A stretch of 35,593 nucleotides of DNA from assembly GCA_012031345.1 (NCBI GenBank), contig JAAUTS010000011.1, positions 1 to 35,593 on the forward strand, read 5' to 3'. Of this stretch, positions 24,791-32,359 are shown in pieces; the stretch's first letter is position 1, and every line of letters starts with the position of its first letter. Below the pieces are notes generated by a model that saw nothing but the letters and a program-made list of their open reading frames with translations, had not been told where the DNA came from and ran no database searches. Source of the stretch: Blastochloris sp. (GTDB taxonomy: Bacteria > Verrucomicrobiota > Verrucomicrobiia > Methylacidiphilales > JAAUTS01). Position numbers and translations under genes: made by a program.

Positions 24791-27486
24791 ATGGACTATA
24801 AAGAGACGATCAAACTACCCAAAACTGATTTTCCCATGAAGGCGGATCTTCCCAAGCGGGAACCTGCCATGGTGAGCCGTTGGAGGGACGGGAAGCTCTA
24901 TGAAAAGCTTCAGGAGGAACGTCGGGAGGCTCCTCCGTTTATTTTTCACTTGGGCCCTCCTTTTGCCAATGGAGATGCCCATATTGGTCACGTTCTGACC
25001 TTCACATTAAAGGACATCGTGGCCAAATCCCGATCCATGGCAGGTTTCCGCGTTCCCTTGATTCCCGGCTGGGACTGTCATGGACTGCCCATTGAGCACA
25101 AGGTCATGGTGGAGAACAAGGACAAGGCGGATGATCCTGTCTTAATCCGTGAAAAGTGTGAGGAAATGGCCCGGAAATATATCGGGATTCAAAAGGAACA
25201 GTTTCGTCGGCTGGGGGTGATCGCAGATTGGGATCAGCCCTACATCACCATGGAACCGGCTTACGAAGCGGAGGAGCTTCGTTCCTTTGCTAAAATTGTG
25301 GGTCGGGGTTTGGTTTATCAGGGATTGCGTCCGGTTTCCTGGAGCACAGGCTGCCAAACCGCTTTGGCCGAGGCGGAGGTGGAATACCATCAGAAAACGG
25401 ACCCGGCGGTTTATGTAAAATTTCCGCTCAGCCCCGCCAGTTGTGAGAACTGGCGCTGGCACAGGGCACATCACTTTTGATTTGGACGACAACTCCCTGG
25501 ACTCTGCCCGCCAACCTGGCGGTGGCTGTTTCCGCGTCCTTGGATTACGGGGTTTACCCCTCCGACTCAGGAGATTTGTTAGCAGCCGTCGCTTTGCAGG
25601 ACAAAATCCCCAACCTCAATCCCAAACCCAAGGCTGTGATCTCAGGTCAGACCTTGCTTGGCCTGGATTATCAACACCCTTTTCTGGAGCGGAAAGGTCA
25701 AATCCACGCGGCGGATTTTGTCACAGCAGATGCCGGGACCGGCATGGTTCATATTGCTCCGGGACATGGAGCGGACGATTATTTTCTGGGGATGCAACAT
25801 GGATTGGAAACCCTTTCTCCCGTGGATGACCGTGGTTGCCTGACTGCGGAATGTGGCGTGCCTGAGTTGGTCGGTCACTATGTTTTCAAGGCCAACCCTC
25901 TCGTGATCGACCTGCTGAAATCCCGCGGAATGTTCTGGGCGCAGGAAGATTACGTCCACGATTATCCTCACTGTTGGAGATCGAAAACACCGATTGTCTT
26001 CCGCTCGGTCAAACAATGGTTCATCAAGGTCGATGCCTTCCGTCAACAGGCACTCGATGAAATCAAAATAGTCCGCTGGATTCCGGCCTGGGGCGAGAAC
26101 CGCATCTCGGGAGCCATTGCCAATCGTCCGGATTGGTGCATCTCGCGGCAACGTTCCTGGGGGGTGCCGATCCCCGTTTTCTATGATGAGCAAGGTCAGG
26201 CCATCATGACGGAGGCTTCAGTTTCCGCTTTTGCTGACATCGTGGAAAAAGAAGGCACGGGGGTGTGGTTTCAATCGGATGCGGATGAGTTGGCGACCAG
26301 ACTGGGGCTGCCCAAGGGCTTGCGCAAAGGCAAGGACACCTTGGACGTCTGGATCGACTCCGGTTCCAGTCAGGTTGCGGTGTTAAAAAAACAGAATCTG
26401 TTTCCGGCGGATCTTTACCTGGAAGGCAGTGACCAACATCGGGGTTGGTTCAACTCCTCCCTCAGTCTTTCCACCCTGGTTCATGGCGTGGCACCTTACA
26501 AGGCGGTGCTGACCCATGGTTTTATCGTGGATGAACATGGTAAAAAATATTCCAAATCCAGCGGAGCCACCGACTCCACCACGCTGCTGAATGAATATGG
26601 TGCCGATGTGCTGCGGCTCTGGGTTTCGAGCCAAGAATACACCAATGACGTGCCTTTTTCCAAAAACATCGTCTCACGTGTGGCGGACTCCTACCGGGGC
26701 ATACGCAACACACTGCGTATTCTTTTGGGAAATCTGCACGGCTTTGACGCCAGCCGTGATGCGCTGGCCCCTGCCCGGTGGACTGAGGTTGATCGTTACA
26801 TGGATCAACAGCTACAGGAAGTGATCCGGGGCTGTCGTCAGGCTTATGATCAATACGAGTTTCATCAGGTCTATCAAATCATCAACCGCTTCTGCACCGT
26901 CCAGCTTTCCGCCTTTTATGTCGATGTGTTGAAGGACCGCATGTATTGCGATGCACATGACTCCGTGGCCCGTCTCTCCGCGCAAACGGTCATGCATGAG
27001 ATCCTCGGTGCGCTGTTGAAACTCCTGGCTCCCATACTTCCCTTCACCACGGAAGAAGCCTGGTCCGCGCTCGGCCACCAGGATTCCATTCACACCCGGC
27101 TTTTCCCGGAAATCAAGAAACCGCAGCCTGACTCTCAAACGGGCGTCGCTTGGGAGGAGTTGCTCACCCTGCGTGATGCCGTCAATGAGCAGTTGGAGCA
27201 GGCCCGGCAACGCAAGGAGATCGGCAAAAGTTTGGAAGCGGAGTTGATCCTGCCCCAAGGTCAATGGCAGGAAGGGGACAGGACCTTCCTGGAGGAAATT
27301 TTCATTGTTTCCCGCGTGCACCTTGCTCCGGTGGAGAGTATTCAGGTCAAACGCTCGCAAAATCCAAAATGTATCCGTTGTTGGAAGTATGTAGAGGATT
27401 TGGGGACGGATCCCGAGCATCCTGAACTTTGTCCGCGCTGCACCACGGCCGTGCGTTCGCATCTCGCGGCTTCTGCCATCGCCTGA
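24791..27486 (+). CDS. ileS: Isoleucyl-tRNA synthetase; one frameshift
   Basis: Charges tRNA-Ile with isoleucine and edits valine. Repaired length about 898 aa, bacterial type: N-terminal PFANGDAHIGH (HIGH motif, about residues 56-66), GWDCHGLPIEHKV, the editing domain with IWTTTPWTLPAN and ADFVTADAGTGMVHIAPGHG, WCISRQRSWGVPIP, KYSKSSG (KMSKS loop), the anticodon-binding region, and a C-terminal zinc finger with two CxxC pairs (CIRC and CPRC). One missing base near 25445-25448 breaks the frame before the editing domain (restored: CEELALAQGTSLLIWTTT). Such a break in an essential, otherwise perfect gene argues for an assembly error. Followed immediately by lspA. Confidence 0.96.
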
Positions 27487-27487
27487 C

Positions 27488-27994
27488 ATGAGTTCTTCCT
27501 GGCCCCAACCCCGCCTCATCTTTTGGGTGCTTCTGCCTTCGCTTCTCTTGCTGGATCAAGGCAGTAAGCACTGGATCCGCTCTGAGTTTTGGGTGGGTCA
27601 AAGCCGTGAAATTGTCCCAGGTTTTCTCAATCTCACCTATGTGTTGAATGATGGCATGGCCTTTGGATTGTTTCAGGGCAACAATCTGCTTTTGGGACTG
27701 ATCGTGCTGGGAATCCTTTGCGTCATGCTCTGGTGGAGTCGCCAACTCAATTGGCGCAGTTGGGAAGTGAATCTTGTCGGTGCCATGATTTTATCCGGTG
27801 CCTTGGGAAACTTGACCGACCGGATTCGCTTCGGACACGTGATCGATTTTGTCGATGTGTATTATCGCAATTTCCACTGGCCCGTCTTCAACGTGGCGGA
27901 CTCCTGCATTTCGATCAGCATGGTCTGGGTTCTAATCCGGATGTGGAAACAACCCGCAGCTTCCGAGTCCGACGCAAGAACTCCTCGCAGCTAA
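27488..27994 (+). CDS. lspA: Lipoprotein signal peptidase (signal peptidase II)
   Basis: Inner-membrane aspartyl protease that removes signal peptides from lipoproteins. The 168-aa product has four TM helices and the LspA motifs: LLLDQGSKHWI, NDGMAFGLF (equivalent of NxGaaFG), NLTDRIRFGHVIDFVDVYY with the first catalytic Asp region and FNVADSCI with the second. It begins one base after the ileS stop, a gene order seen in many bacteria. Its TAA shares bases with the stop of convergent oppF (4-nt overlap). Clients in this window would include the VWA lipoprotein and OppA. Confidence 0.95.
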   Translation: MSSSWPQPRLIFWVLLPSLLLLDQGSKHWIRSEFWVGQSREIVPGFLNLTYVLNDGMAFGLFQGNNLLLGLIVLGILCVMLWWSRQLNWRSWEVNLVGAMILSGALGNLTDRIRFGHVIDFVDVYYRNFHWPVFNVADSCISISMVWVLIRMWKQPAASESDARTPRS

Positions 27995-28782
27995 AACCTC
28001 GGGACAGCTTCCAACAGCTTGCGGGTGTAGGCGTGCTGGGGATCGCGATAAAGCGATTCCGGGGGGCCTTGTTCCACGATCCGACCTTCGTTCATGACCA
28101 AAACCTGGTCACTGATATGTTCCACCACGGCCAAGTCATGGGAAATGAAGAGGTAGGTGAGTTTGAACTCCTTTTGAATGTCCTGCAGGAGATTGACAAT
28201 CTGAGCCTGCACAGAAACGTCGAGGGCACTCACGGGTTCGTCACAGATCAGAAACTCCGGCTCTACGGCCAAAGCGCGGGCAATGCCGATCCGCTGCCGC
28301 TGGCCTCCACTGAATTCATGAGGATAACGCGTCAGGTGTTTGGGTTCGAGACCCACCAAATTCAACAGTTCTGAAATGCGTTGGCGACGCTGTGCCTTGT
28401 TTTTGTTTGGAAAATGAATTTCCAAGGCTTCACCCACGATCTGCTCCACACTCATGCGGGGATTGATGGAGTTGTAAGGATCTTGAAAAATCAGTTGAAT
28501 CTTTTTTCGATAAGACATGAACGCATTGCGGTCCAGGTTCGAAATTTCCGTGCCTTGATACCGGATCTGTCCCGAACTGGGATCCACCAGACGGATGATG
28601 CATTTTCCGATGGTGGATTTTCCGCTGCCACTTTCCCCCACCAAACCCACCGTGCTGCCAGCCTCAATGTCAAAAGAAACGCCATCCACCGCCCGAACCT
28701 GATCCGTAACGCGCTGTAGCAGCCCGGAACGAATGGGGAAGTGGACCTTAAGATCAGTAACAGAAAGCAGGGGGGTGTTCAT
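27991..28782 (-). CDS. oppF: Oligopeptide/dipeptide ABC transporter ATP-binding protein (OppF/DppF)
   Basis: Cytoplasmic ATPase of a peptide importer. 263 aa from ATG 28782; a TTG-started extension upstream would lie in the inverted repeat of the inserted unit and is not used. Motifs: Walker A GESGSGKST, Q-loop FQDPYNSINPRM, signature FSGGQRQRIGIARALA, Walker B FLICDEPVSALD, H-loop ISHDLAVV, and a short oligo_HPY-type end (PQHAYTRKLLEAVP). The LQRVTDQVRAVDGVSF N-terminal insert is typical of OppF versus OppD. It is the last gene of the opp operon, separated from oppD by the GxxExxY unit, and overlaps the convergent lspA end by 4 nt. Confidence 0.93.
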   Translation of the reverse strand: MNTPLLSVTDLKVHFPIRSGLLQRVTDQVRAVDGVSFDIEAGSTVGLVGESGSGKSTIGKCIIRLVDPSSGQIRYQGTEISNLDRNAFMSYRKKIQLIFQDPYNSINPRMSVEQIVGEALEIHFPNKNKAQRRQRISELLNLVGLEPKHLTRYPHEFSGGQRQRIGIARALAVEPEFLICDEPVSALDVSVQAQIVNLLQDIQKEFKLTYLFISHDLAVVEHISDQVLVMNEGRIVEQGPPESLYRDPQHAYTRKLLEAVPRF

Positions 28783-28783
28783 T

Positions 28784-28815
28784 TTAACAGGAAGATCGCA
28801 AAGCAACGCCAAGTT
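28784..28815 (+). repeat. Left terminal inverted repeat of the GxxExxY unit
   Basis: Begins TTAACAGGAAGA (28784-28795) and ends CGCCAAGTT (28807-28815). Both blocks match the right repeat perfectly, and 5 of 11 bases match between them. The oppF ATG lies 1 nt outside it and the GxxExxY stop codon begins at its inner edge. Confidence 0.75.
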
Positions 28816-29219
28816 CAGCGTGAATCAGAACCTTTTAAGATTAGTCGGCGTAAGCCCTTTTTAAGAAGTGGATCGTGAAAATTTATTAATAAACCTATGG
28901 GAATATCCATTAGTTTCATATAGCTGAGAAGTTGAGCGACGTGGATTGGCAGCAGGGCTTCGACGGATTTTGTCTCCACCAGCAGACAGTCATCCACCAA
29001 AAGATCAAATCGTAGTTTCTCTTCGAACACATATCCTTTGTACTCTATGGGAATTTGTTTTTCTCTGATACACGGAATTTTCCTGAGAAAAAGCTCCCTG
29101 TAGAGACATTTTTGGTAAATAGGCTCCAAAAGTCCAGGCCCTTTGAGTTTGTGGACTTCAATGGCAGCACTAATCACCTCATGGCTTAGTTTGTCGGCTT
29201 TAATGAAATTCAAATGCAT
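28815..29219 (-). CDS. GxxExxY protein (PD-(D/E)XK nuclease superfamily, PDDEXK_3 type)
   Basis: 134-aa protein from ATG 29219 (MHLNFIKADKLSHEVISAAIEVHKLKG). The family-defining GLLEPIY (GxxExxY) is at about residues 30-36, after the SHEVISAAIEVH helix. A PD-(D/E)XK-like core follows: KLRFDLLVDDCLLVETKS, giving an Asp and an ExK (ETK) at the expected spacing, and a C-terminal LINFHDPLLKKGLRRLI. The family is common and often multi-copy in PVC bacteria; its biochemical role is not established. The gene sits inside the opp operon, filling exactly the space between two 32-bp inverted repeats. A longer start at 29315 would overlap oppD by 67 nt and cross the repeat, so I reject it. Confidence 0.88.
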   Translation of the reverse strand: MHLNFIKADKLSHEVISAAIEVHKLKGPGLLEPIYQKCLYRELFLRKIPCIREKQIPIEYKGYVFEEKLRFDLLVDDCLLVETKSVEALLPIHVAQLLSYMKLMDIPIGLLINFHDPLLKKGLRRLILKGSDSR

Positions 29220-29220
29220 A

Positions 29221-29252
29221 AACTTGGCGAAACTTCGTGTTCTTCCTGTTAA
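29221..29252 (-). repeat. Right terminal inverted repeat of the GxxExxY unit
   Basis: On the minus strand it reads TTAACAGGAAGA (29252-29241) and later CGCCAAGTT (29229-29221), matching the left repeat. The oppD stop codon TAA (29251-29249) is part of its TTAA tip and the GxxExxY ATG begins one base inside its inner edge. Confidence 0.75.
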
Positions 29253-30082
29253 GAAATCTCGGAGTAGTCGATGGTGGTCAGGCGCTGTTTTTTCTGGCCG
29301 AGGCGGGGGATGCAATCAATCAAGGCGCGGGTGTAGGGATGTTGGGGTTGGTGCAGGACATGGGAGGCGCTGCCTTCCTCCACGATTTTCCCTTTGTACA
29401 TGACCAGCACACGATCAGCAAAGCCTGCCACGATGCCGAAATTGTGGGTGATGAGAATCACCGACATGGAAAGACGGGCCTTTAAATCCTTGAGCAAATT
29501 CATGATCTGAGCCTGGATGGTCACGTCCAGGGCCGTGGTGGGTTCGTCCGCCACCAGAATGTCAGGCTGACAAGCCAGTGCCATCGCGATCATGACACGT
29601 TGTTGCATCCCTCCACTCAATTGATGCGGGTAGTCGTGCAGACGCTTGCGCGCGTCACGGATTCCCACCAGATCCAGCAAACGGACAATCTCCGCATCGT
29701 GGTCCTTGATTTCAGGGCGATGCAGCGCAAGCACTTCGGCAATCTGGCTGCGGATACTGAAGACTGGATTGAGGGAGGTGGAAGGTTCCTGAAAGATATA
29801 GGCAATACGTTTACCGCGAATCTTCATCAATTCCTTCGCGGACAGCTTGAGAATGTCTTGGCCTTCCAACTCAATGGCACCTTCAATCTGGCAGCTCGGA
29901 GGGGAGGGGAGCAGTCGGGTCAGGGCCAGCGCAGTCACGCTTTTGCCACTGCCACTTTCCCCGACGATGGCCAGGGTCTCTCCGGCTCCGAGGCTGAAAC
30001 CAATCTGATCCACCGCCAGAAGGGAGTCGTTGGCGCTGTGGAAGCGGATGCTGAGTTGTTCGACTTTAAGCAGTGTTTTCAT
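29249..30082 (-). CDS. oppD: Oligopeptide/dipeptide ABC transporter ATP-binding protein (OppD/DppD)
   Basis: First ATPase subunit of the peptide importer. 277 aa with Walker A GESGSGKS, FQEPSTSLNPVFSI, signature LSGGMQQRVMIAMALA, Walker B ILVADEPTTALD and H-loop ITHNFGIV. The ATG overlaps the oppBC stop (ATGA). The oligo_HPY end is short: after HPYTRALIDCIPRL it stops within about 20 aa (TTIDYSEIS), without the Pro/Cys-rich tail (PxGCxFxxRCP) usual in OppD. The stop codon lies in the TTAA that borders the inserted GxxExxY unit, but the rebuilt empty site keeps the same stop, so the short tail may be native. Confidence 0.93.
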   Translation of the reverse strand: MKTLLKVEQLSIRFHSANDSLLAVDQIGFSLGAGETLAIVGESGSGKSVTALALTRLLPSPPSCQIEGAIELEGQDILKLSAKELMKIRGKRIAYIFQEPSTSLNPVFSIRSQIAEVLALHRPEIKDHDAEIVRLLDLVGIRDARKRLHDYPHQLSGGMQQRVMIAMALACQPDILVADEPTTALDVTIQAQIMNLLKDLKARLSMSVILITHNFGIVAGFADRVLVMYKGKIVEEGSASHVLHQPQHPYTRALIDCIPRLGQKKQRLTTIDYSEIS

Positions 30083-32281
30083 GAGCGTTGTTCGGATTGG
30101 AATTTGGGATCAATGATGTCGCGTAATTCATCGCCCAAAAGATTGAAGGCGATGACGACGAGGAAGATCATGAGACCGGGAATAAAAAACCAGCCAAAGC
30201 CCAGCATAAGAACCTTCATTTCCTGGGCCTGCGACAACATGAGTCCCCAGGAGGCGGACGGTTCAACCACACCCAAACCGAGAAAACTGAGCGAAGCTTC
30301 TCCCAGAATGTAGCCGGGATGCTGAGGGTGGCACCGATGACCAGATAACTGGCAATGTTAGGCAGGATGTGTTTGAGCAGAATGTTCAGGCGGGATTGGC
30401 CCATGGCTTCAGCGGCCAGGACGAAGGATCTTTGGCGGATGGATAGTGTCATACCTCGAATCACCCGGGCCGTGCCTGTCCATCCGATGAAGGAAAGCAC
30501 AACCACGATGAGCAGAAAAATTTCTCCAGGATCAAAGAAGGGGGAGAGTGCGGCCCGCAGCGCTATAAGAAGGTAAAGTCCCGGAATGGACATGATGATT
30601 TCCGTGATCCGCATGGCCACGGAGTCAAAGCTGCCGCCCAAATAACCCGAGAGCGCTCCGATGAGAAATCCCAAGGTCATGGTGATGCTGACGCCGATCA
30701 ATCCGAGCGAGAGCGAAATTTGTGAACCGACCAGGATTCTGGAAAAAAGATCGCGTCCGGTGGAGTCGCTGCCCAGCAGGTAAATGCGATCCGGGGCATC
30801 CACTCCAAAGAGCCGGACGGAACTGGGAATCAATCCGAACAGCTTATAAGGTTCACCCTGCACCCACCAACGAATCACAGCGGTTTCACCGGGAATACTT
30901 TCGTAACGCGCCACGGTTTTGTCTGCATTGACGTAGCGTTGAACCTGAAGTTTTCCATCTTTCCAGAGTAGGGCAGTGGGGGATGGTAGGTGTGTTCCAG
31001 ACTTTGATTCGAGACGGAGTAAGGGGAGAGGAACGGCGCCAACAAGGCCAGGATATACAAAAGAACGAGCAGGAGAAGAGAGCTGAATCCGATGGGGTTG
31101 CGCAAAAGTTTGGGCAAGATACGACGCAGCACGGGCAGGCTGGTCCAGAGAACAAACAGGGCGGAAATGACGAGGAAGATCAGACCACCAGTTTTGAGGT
31201 TTTGCCAAAAGACTTTGCTCGTCCAGGGCAGGAGGCTCAACAAGTAGCAGAGCAGGGCGATGGCGAACACGGAAGTGATGATGTGAAGGACACTTTTACG
31301 GGATTGGTTGGAGGCTTGTTCCAGACGTATGCGGGGATCGGAGGCGGCCAACAAAAGATCGGCCAATAGATTGCCCAGGATCAACATGGTGGCACCAAGG
31401 ACCACGGCGGCTAAAACGAGGTAATGATCCTGTCGTAGAAAGGCTTGGTAGGTGAGTTGTCCCAGGCCGGGGTAGTTGAAGATGTTCTCAATCATGAGAG
31501 AACCACTGAGCAGTCCGGAGAAGGCAAAACCGAGTGAGGTGATGAAGGGATTGATGGCGTTGCGCAGCGCATGTTTGAACATCACACTGAATTCGCTCAG
31601 TCCTTTGGCCCGGGCCGTGGTGACGTATTCAGCCCGGATGTTGTCCAGAAAAGTGGCCCGCATGATACGCATGGTCCCGGCCACACTTCCCAGTCCGAGC
31701 ACAAGCGTGGGAAGCGCCAGATGCCAAAGATAATCCACCACACGCTGCCCTGCGGGGTCGAAATCGGAAGTGATCGAACTCAAGCTGCCGACCGGAAACA
31801 GTCCGGTGCTGGCAGCAAAATAGAGTGCGATCAAGGCCAGGAAAAATTCCGGCAGGGAAATAGCGGCATAAGCCAGGAAAGCGGAGATGCGGTCGAAGAT
31901 GGAATTTTTATACATGGCGGCCAGAACGCCCAGGGGCAGAGCCACCATCCAGGATAAAAGCAAGGAAGCGATGGCCAGGCCGAGCGTGGCTGGAACCCGT
32001 TGCTTGAGAAGTTCGGTCACCTCCAGTTTGTAGGTCCAGGAATAACCGAAATCCAGGGTCAGGGCATTTTTCAACCAGAGCACATATTGGGTGGTCCAGG
32101 GTTGATCGAGGCCGTAGTCCTTTTCCAGCTTCGCAATGACTTCAGGGGAGATATCGCGCTGGGCGCGGGCCGTGTCTAAAAAATCGCCCGGAGCCAAATC
32201 CATAAGAAAAAAGACCAGGAAAGAAATGACCGCCAAGATCGGCAGAGTGATGAGGAGACGACGCAGAATGTAGGCGATCAT
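30079..32281 (-). CDS. Fused OppB-OppC peptide ABC transporter permease; two frameshifts in the OppC half
   Basis: Both permease subunits of the peptide importer on one open frame, about 734 aa after repair. The OppB half runs from ATG 32281 (MIAYILRRLLITLP) through the binding-protein-dependent transport domain (LGSVAGTMRIMRATFLDNIRAEYVTTARAKGLSE, the EAA loop) to about residue 330. A linker with two extra predicted TMs (about 340-395) leads without stop or internal ATG into OppC (RNPIGFSSLLLLVLLYILALLAPFLSPY, then LLGSDSTGRDLFSRI and AEAMGQSRLNILLKHILPN). Breaks: one missing base in G5 at 30978-30982, and one at 30314-30318 (restored SIPGYILGEASLSFLGLG). An ATG at 32302 is an alternative start. 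Confidence 0.82.
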
Positions 32282-32359
32282 GGGGTGGATTCTTCGGCCC
32301 ATAACTCATCAACTTTGAGTGTAAGGAAACCTCGGGCATTGGTGAGGGTATTTTTCCAT

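Follow-up and report, generated by a model that had tools for sequence, protein, structure and literature searches.

A GxxExxY nuclease-fold gene between terminal inverted repeats at an oppD-oppF junction: a candidate minimal mobile element with gene-less hairpin relatives

The window, by which is meant the whole 35,593-nt stretch of DNA analysed, belongs to a fragmented genome (G000; 87% complete, 3.2 Mb in 236 contigs) that contains four GxxExxY genes. One of these lies on the minus strand between two genes for ABC ATPases: an oppD-like gene upstream (29249..30082, minus strand) and an oppF-like gene downstream (27991..28782, minus strand). The space between the two host genes is taken up by a 469-bp unit (28784..29252, minus strand; ends certain to a few bases) that consists of a terminal inverted repeat (TIR), the GxxExxY gene and a second TIR. 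The gene itself (28815..29219, minus strand) runs from an ATG at 29219-29217 to a TGA at 28817-28815 and encodes a protein of 134 aa. The initial annotation had described a minimal TIR-bounded element of one gene, with the start codon just inside one repeat and the stop codon touching the other. This description holds: the ORF read from 29219 to 28815 starts one base inward of the right arm, and the final base of its stop codon doubles as the innermost position of the left arm. A separate gene for a transposase is lacking within the unit. Elsewhere in the window, two reading-frame disruptions were seen. The ileS gene (24791-27486) is split into two overlapping frames (24791-25480 and 25477-27486), a frameshift that is probably an assembly or sequencing error. 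At 30216-32302, a 475-aa frame (30875-32302) corresponds to OppB plus the N-terminal part of OppC, and the remaining OppC is found in the overlapping frame 30216-31208, which represents an OppB/OppC frameshift or fusion.

Each of the two arms (28784-28815 and 29221-29252) has 32 nt; they are complementary at 26 of 32 positions (81%) and enclose 405 nt. The 5' arm, upstream of the GxxExxY gene, reads TTAACAGGAAGAACACGAAGTTTCGCCAAGTT on the minus strand (29221..29252); the 3' arm reads TTAACAGGAAGATCGCAAAGCAACGCCAAGTT on the plus strand (28784..28815). Between 28600 and 29500 they form the only inverted repeat of at least 12 nt, and they stand first among the nine inverted repeats listed across the window. 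The match reported earlier between these ends is real by two measures: when the two flanks were shuffled 1000 times with dinucleotides preserved, no shuffle scored above 12, against 14 for the ungapped arms, and the 12-mer TTAACAGGAAGA occurs within the window at both element ends only, where 0.15 matches are expected at up to one mismatch. The arm can be written as (AA)CAGGAAG(AA)CACGAAG(TT)TCGCCAAG, a layout that fits the plan of three 7-mers found at other loci (see below). The right arm also contains the oppD stop codon TAA (29251-29249), and thus the element supplies the oppD stop. The ATG of oppF lies one base beyond the left arm.

GxxExxY genes are common and often multi-copy, and their role is undefined. 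The protein encoded in the window matches two profiles over its full length: GxxExxY/TIGR04256 (E 1.9e-38; 131.4 bits, cut-off 35) and PDDEXK_3/PF13366 (E 3.4e-37; 127.8 bits, cut-off 22). Its AlphaFold2 model is a confident single domain (pLDDT 93.8), for which the top fold match is the Cas4 protein SSO0001 (4ic1; Foldseek E 1.3e-3, TM 0.53). Fold matches to PD-(D/E)XK nucleases reach a probability of up to 1.00, yet their E values are never better than 1e-3, and the match to 4ic1 at the level of sequence has an E of only 0.44. Weaker fold matches include lambda exonuclease, R2 endonuclease, splicing endonucleases and Holliday junction resolvases. Relative to the Cas4/lambda-exonuclease branch of the superfamily the fold is alike, but the GxxExxY protein is much shorter and gives no sign of exonuclease function. 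The PD-(D/E)XK-like core that had been read from the translation is consistent with both profiles, with the fold model and with the intact side chains D72, E82 and K84. By its modelled fold and its D...ExK residues, the protein is a member of the PD-(D/E)XK superfamily, with nuclease activity predicted. Across 134 GxxExxY proteins the catalytic residues are kept almost throughout (D in 132, E in 128 and K in 132), and dN/dS is 0.03-0.11 in those pairs for which dS could be estimated. The predicted nuclease is evidently under selection.

In the majority of relatives, oppF overlaps oppD or almost touches it, and the empty junction that the initial annotation anticipated is found in G003, G014 and others. 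In G003, which belongs to the same genus as G001, the overlap of the two genes is ATGA. The junction is filled by a GxxExxY element in three genomes of the family (G000, G001 and G002), in each of which the oppD TAA comes from the TTAAC end of the element. In G024, the junction is occupied instead by a unit of 151 bp that has perfect 26-bp arms and no gene, and the junction of its sister G014 is empty.

One account of these occupied junctions is an old resident gene, inherited vertically between oppD and oppF, with the repeats having arisen around it as terminator or stability hairpins. This would agree with two further genomes of the family, in which this junction likewise contains a GxxExxY gene, and with copies elsewhere that were inherited together with their flanks (for example L254/L255, 98.7% identical). 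A deeply conserved oppD-GxxExxY-oppF order with diverged repeats had also been named at the outset as evidence against a mobile unit. Two relatives do share the arrangement, yet the copies do not descend from one insertion. The window protein groups as sister (support 100/97) with a copy from another family of the order, which sits between exbD-like and peptide-deformylase-like genes (both named from reading sequences); the copies at the opp site of G001 and G002 are sisters of each other, not of the window copy. A tree holding all three opp-site copies together is rejected (AU p=0.026), a moderate p value for a group that was named after the tree had been seen and that includes long branches. 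A single ancestral insertion is accordingly disfavoured by both the tree and the AU test. By this comparison the junction holds at least two, and probably three, separate insertions: the window copy; the other GxxExxY lineage in G001 and G002; and the gene-less copy in G024. Vertical residence is further opposed by the empty junction of the sister genome G003, by arms that track protein lineage across loci, and by gene-less copies that bear the same arms. We regard it as very improbable.

Filled and empty states can also be aligned at other sites. At the L304 site, which separates the stop codon of one gene from the ATG of its neighbour, G003 has an insertion where G004 and G006 have none; at the L300 site, G001 has one, whereas G003, G004 and G006 are empty. 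No clear target-site duplication is seen in the filled/empty alignments, in which intergenic alignment is imprecise and element ends are certain to a few bases. The TTAA that had been offered as a possible target duplication belongs to the ends themselves: arms at unrelated sites have it in their consensus (TTAAC or TTCAC; TT[A/C]AC...). In several cases (L294/L342, L296/L343, L307/L356 and L300/L344) related genomes have different hairpin families in one and the same intergenic slot, although the flanks align well. Between G001 and G005, the flanks of slots with differing hairpins are 90-99% identical, which points to quick turnover or to repeated use of tolerated slots.

The initial annotation had pointed to other GxxExxY genes as the place to look for inverted repeats, and had named a lack of them in close relatives as evidence against a mobile unit. 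At these other genes the repeats are in fact frequent. At a threshold score of at least 14, TIRs are found at 53 of 80 GxxExxY loci as compared to 1 of 408 shifted control windows; the remaining 27 loci fall below the threshold. The 80 loci span many phyla (Verrucomicrobiota, Planctomycetota, Bacteroidota, Cyanobacteria, Chloroflexota, Acidobacteriota, Pseudomonadota, Omnitrophota and others), and within the order of the window the same score is reached at 39 of 53. Most arms are laid out alike, with TTnAC ahead of three 7-mers that approximate CRCRRAG at a spacing of 8-9 nt. An example from Burkholderiaceae (L209), CTAACCGCAGAGACGCAGAGAACGCAGAG, matches at 29 of 29 positions. Some lineages have another repeat unit, such as GACGGAATTAACGGAATTACGGAATT. 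Arm similarity tracks protein identity (Mantel r=0.62, 0 of 2000 permutations), and unrelated copies within one genome have an arm similarity of 0.25, against 0.24 for unrelated copies across genomes. The arms therefore belong to the gene lineage and not to the host. No phage records were found, and the eight plasmids that were found are all below 60% identity; carriage by phage or plasmid is rejected on these counts. As a group, the GxxExxY genes look to be the core genes of a TIR element family with a wide distribution. Such a core role would explain both the scatter of the family and its frequent place inside operons, and it would also account for a class of intergenic CACAGAG-type hairpins.

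These hairpins are gene-less pairs of arms, and they are most abundant in G024, where a single GxxExxY gene is accompanied by 124 arms of its type, divided almost equally between the strands. The G024-type arm is present in 59 copies in G039 and in 2 copies in the sister G014, which has no GxxExxY gene; the gene-less pairs with this arm that were fetched are 109-172 bp long. In G001 and G003, hairpins of about 75-132 bp bear the arm variant of the genome's own GxxExxY element (TTCAACGC versus TTCACCGC). In the window genome, the window arm recurs once, in a gene-less hairpin of about 90 bp (C73:7009) between ftsY-like and nusB-like genes; about 20 copies of another gene-less hairpin are also present. 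The gene-less copies in G024, G001, G003 and G000 are short, bounded by TIRs and share the ends of a resident gene-bearing element, features that they have in common with MITEs. Across 60 genomes, arms are found in 19 of 21 with a GxxExxY gene and in 6 of 39 without one (606 versus 22 arms). Controls with the reversed pattern gave zero, and the Fisher p value of 1.3e-8 is optimistic, as related genomes are not independent and the co-occurrence is confounded by shared ancestry.

Two features of the G024 hairpins were noted in passing. In most of the gene-less copies (noted at L069, L146, L161 and L162) the arms enclose a further inverted repeat (AATCAGGAACTCAGGAAA...TTTCCTGAGTTCCTGATT), which looks like the insertion of one hairpin family into a second. 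Outside the arms, at positions -1 to -14, TTTT followed by a purine-rich stretch precedes the arm, on the same strand and on both sides. This may represent either extended ends or a target preference.

The closest known kind of element is the REPtron or TIRtron, in which a RAYT or TIRYT gene for a Y1 transposase is flanked by REPs or TIRs and gene-less REPIN or TIR copies are also present (PMC3733652, PMC3116915). The likenesses are: a single small gene enclosed by inverted repeats; arms whose type is particular to the gene lineage; inverted pairs that lack a gene and are scattered over extragenic sites; and mobilisation proposed to occur in trans. In contrast to REPtrons and TIRtrons, the sole gene here encodes a PF13366 PD-(D/E)XK protein and lacks the HUH/Y1 domain (PF01797) that defines them, and the arms consist of three degenerate 7-mers at 8-9-nt spacing, rather than GTAG or GGGGWSAS motifs. 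GxxExxY elements co-occur with TIRYT-like genes in the same genomes, yet the two are distinct. Of the homing-like or transposon-like spread that had been suggested earlier, the TIR-bounded mobile unit is retained; homing is not, as insertion is not confined to a cognate allelic site and copies occupy many unrelated intergenic sites. No description of a mobile-element context for GxxExxY was found in the open-access literature searched.

The genomic comparisons, which are of sequence throughout, demonstrate the structure of the unit, the co-inheritance of arm and protein, independent arrival at the junction and the spread of gene-less copies. From these we infer the mover to be the GxxExxY nuclease itself. 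The reading that we consider probable is that of a minimal mobile element whose nuclease recognises the arms and mobilises both its own element and the gene-less hairpins. If so, the process likely involves: a gene, apparently promoterless and read together with its neighbours, held within TIRs of three degenerate 7-mers each; insertion at the stop/start junction of oppD and oppF, which removed neither gene and provided oppD with its stop; recognition of the paired arms by the nuclease, either as duplex DNA or as extruded hairpins; and a cut at the arms or at the target, by which the element would be mobilised. Gene-less hairpins could be mobilised by the same nuclease in trans, as is thought for RAYT/TIRYT with REPINs/TIRs. 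Host enzymes of recombination or replication may assist the nuclease, or it may act by itself.

A different enzyme could, in principle, move the same DNA. Here, the element and its gene-less copies would still be mobile, and the mover would be a Y1 transposase, a reverse transcriptase or host replication and repair acting on the hairpins; the GxxExxY protein would bind or process the arms, or protect the element. One comparison comes from PF05635 genes, at which a TIR plan of the same kind is found at 21 of 28 loci, as compared to 0 of 101 controls. PF05635 is thus another gene family, unrelated to GxxExxY, in which this element plan is seen. As the PF05635 protein has no nuclease fold, the element plan does not need the GxxExxY nuclease, and a mechanism common to both families and supplied from outside becomes possible. 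The direction in which GxxExxY genes are read (with both neighbours in 25 cases, against both in 3) fits a promoterless gene expressed by read-through, or an RNA step, and a different mover would also be in keeping with the lack of a visible target duplication in the filled/empty alignments. To our knowledge, moreover, no stand-alone PD-(D/E)XK transposase is known.

Against an external mover stands the fit between arm type and the resident GxxExxY lineage. In addition, Y1 transposase genes of the same genomes lie outside the GxxExxY elements and mostly carry a different TIR, GGGGTCAG..., and Y1 transposase was not found in arm-rich G003 or G039; a RAYT is disfavoured as the mover on both counts. 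Arm-rich G024, G001 and G048 yielded no reverse transcriptase, which is disfavoured likewise, though as several of these genomes are incomplete the absences of either enzyme are weak evidence. Movement by another enzyme is on balance unlikely, if well short of negligible. The Y1 genes at L244, L246, L247, L249 and L251 also have long TIRs, which at three of these loci are of the GGGGTCA type, fitting the TIRYT class (PMC3733652).

Movement might also be set aside altogether, with the arms pairing in the operon mRNA, RNase III cutting the stem and the unit persisting as a harmless RNA-level intervening sequence. The anatomy of the window element resembles that of the intervening sequence in Coxiella 23S rRNA (428 nt, with a 28-bp stem and an S23 ORF; PMC4990558) in its size, its single small ORF and its long terminal stem. 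PF05635 is moreover the family of the intervening-sequence (S23/IVP) proteins and has periodic TIRs here, and the sense bias of GxxExxY genes would be expected. However, the GxxExxY protein is unrelated to that family, the site is oppD-oppF and not rRNA, and selection on RNA pairing is not apparent: arm mismatches comprise 32 G-U and 42 A-C (p=0.30), with no excess of G-U. RNA processing alone does not explain tens of dispersed gene-less hairpins. This explanation seems to us scarcely tenable. The relatives' PF05635 genes (23S_rRNA_IVP, four-helix bundle; L036-L065) apparently lie outside rRNA and have TIRs with a period of 7-8 nt, such as GTGATGAGGTGATGGAGTGATGGGGTGATG. The plan shared with these genes bears on the spread of rRNA intervening sequences, a question of long standing.

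Known transposases are of the DDE, HUH, tyrosine and serine types or are casposases. If the GxxExxY nuclease is the mover, a catalytic type would be added to these. A broader proposal, which we advance tentatively and which could well prove wrong, is that GxxExxY constitutes a transposase class of its own: a stand-alone PD-(D/E)XK nuclease that, in many phyla, moves its gene, and gene-less hairpins in large numbers, by means of arms built from tandem 7-mers. The lineages of arm and enzyme can be matched in silico.

The repeats also affect the annotation of starts and stops in the GxxExxY family. Several C-terminal tails of GxxExxY proteins (such as ...SASSAPLR; L003, L005, L006 and L026) are translated right arms.
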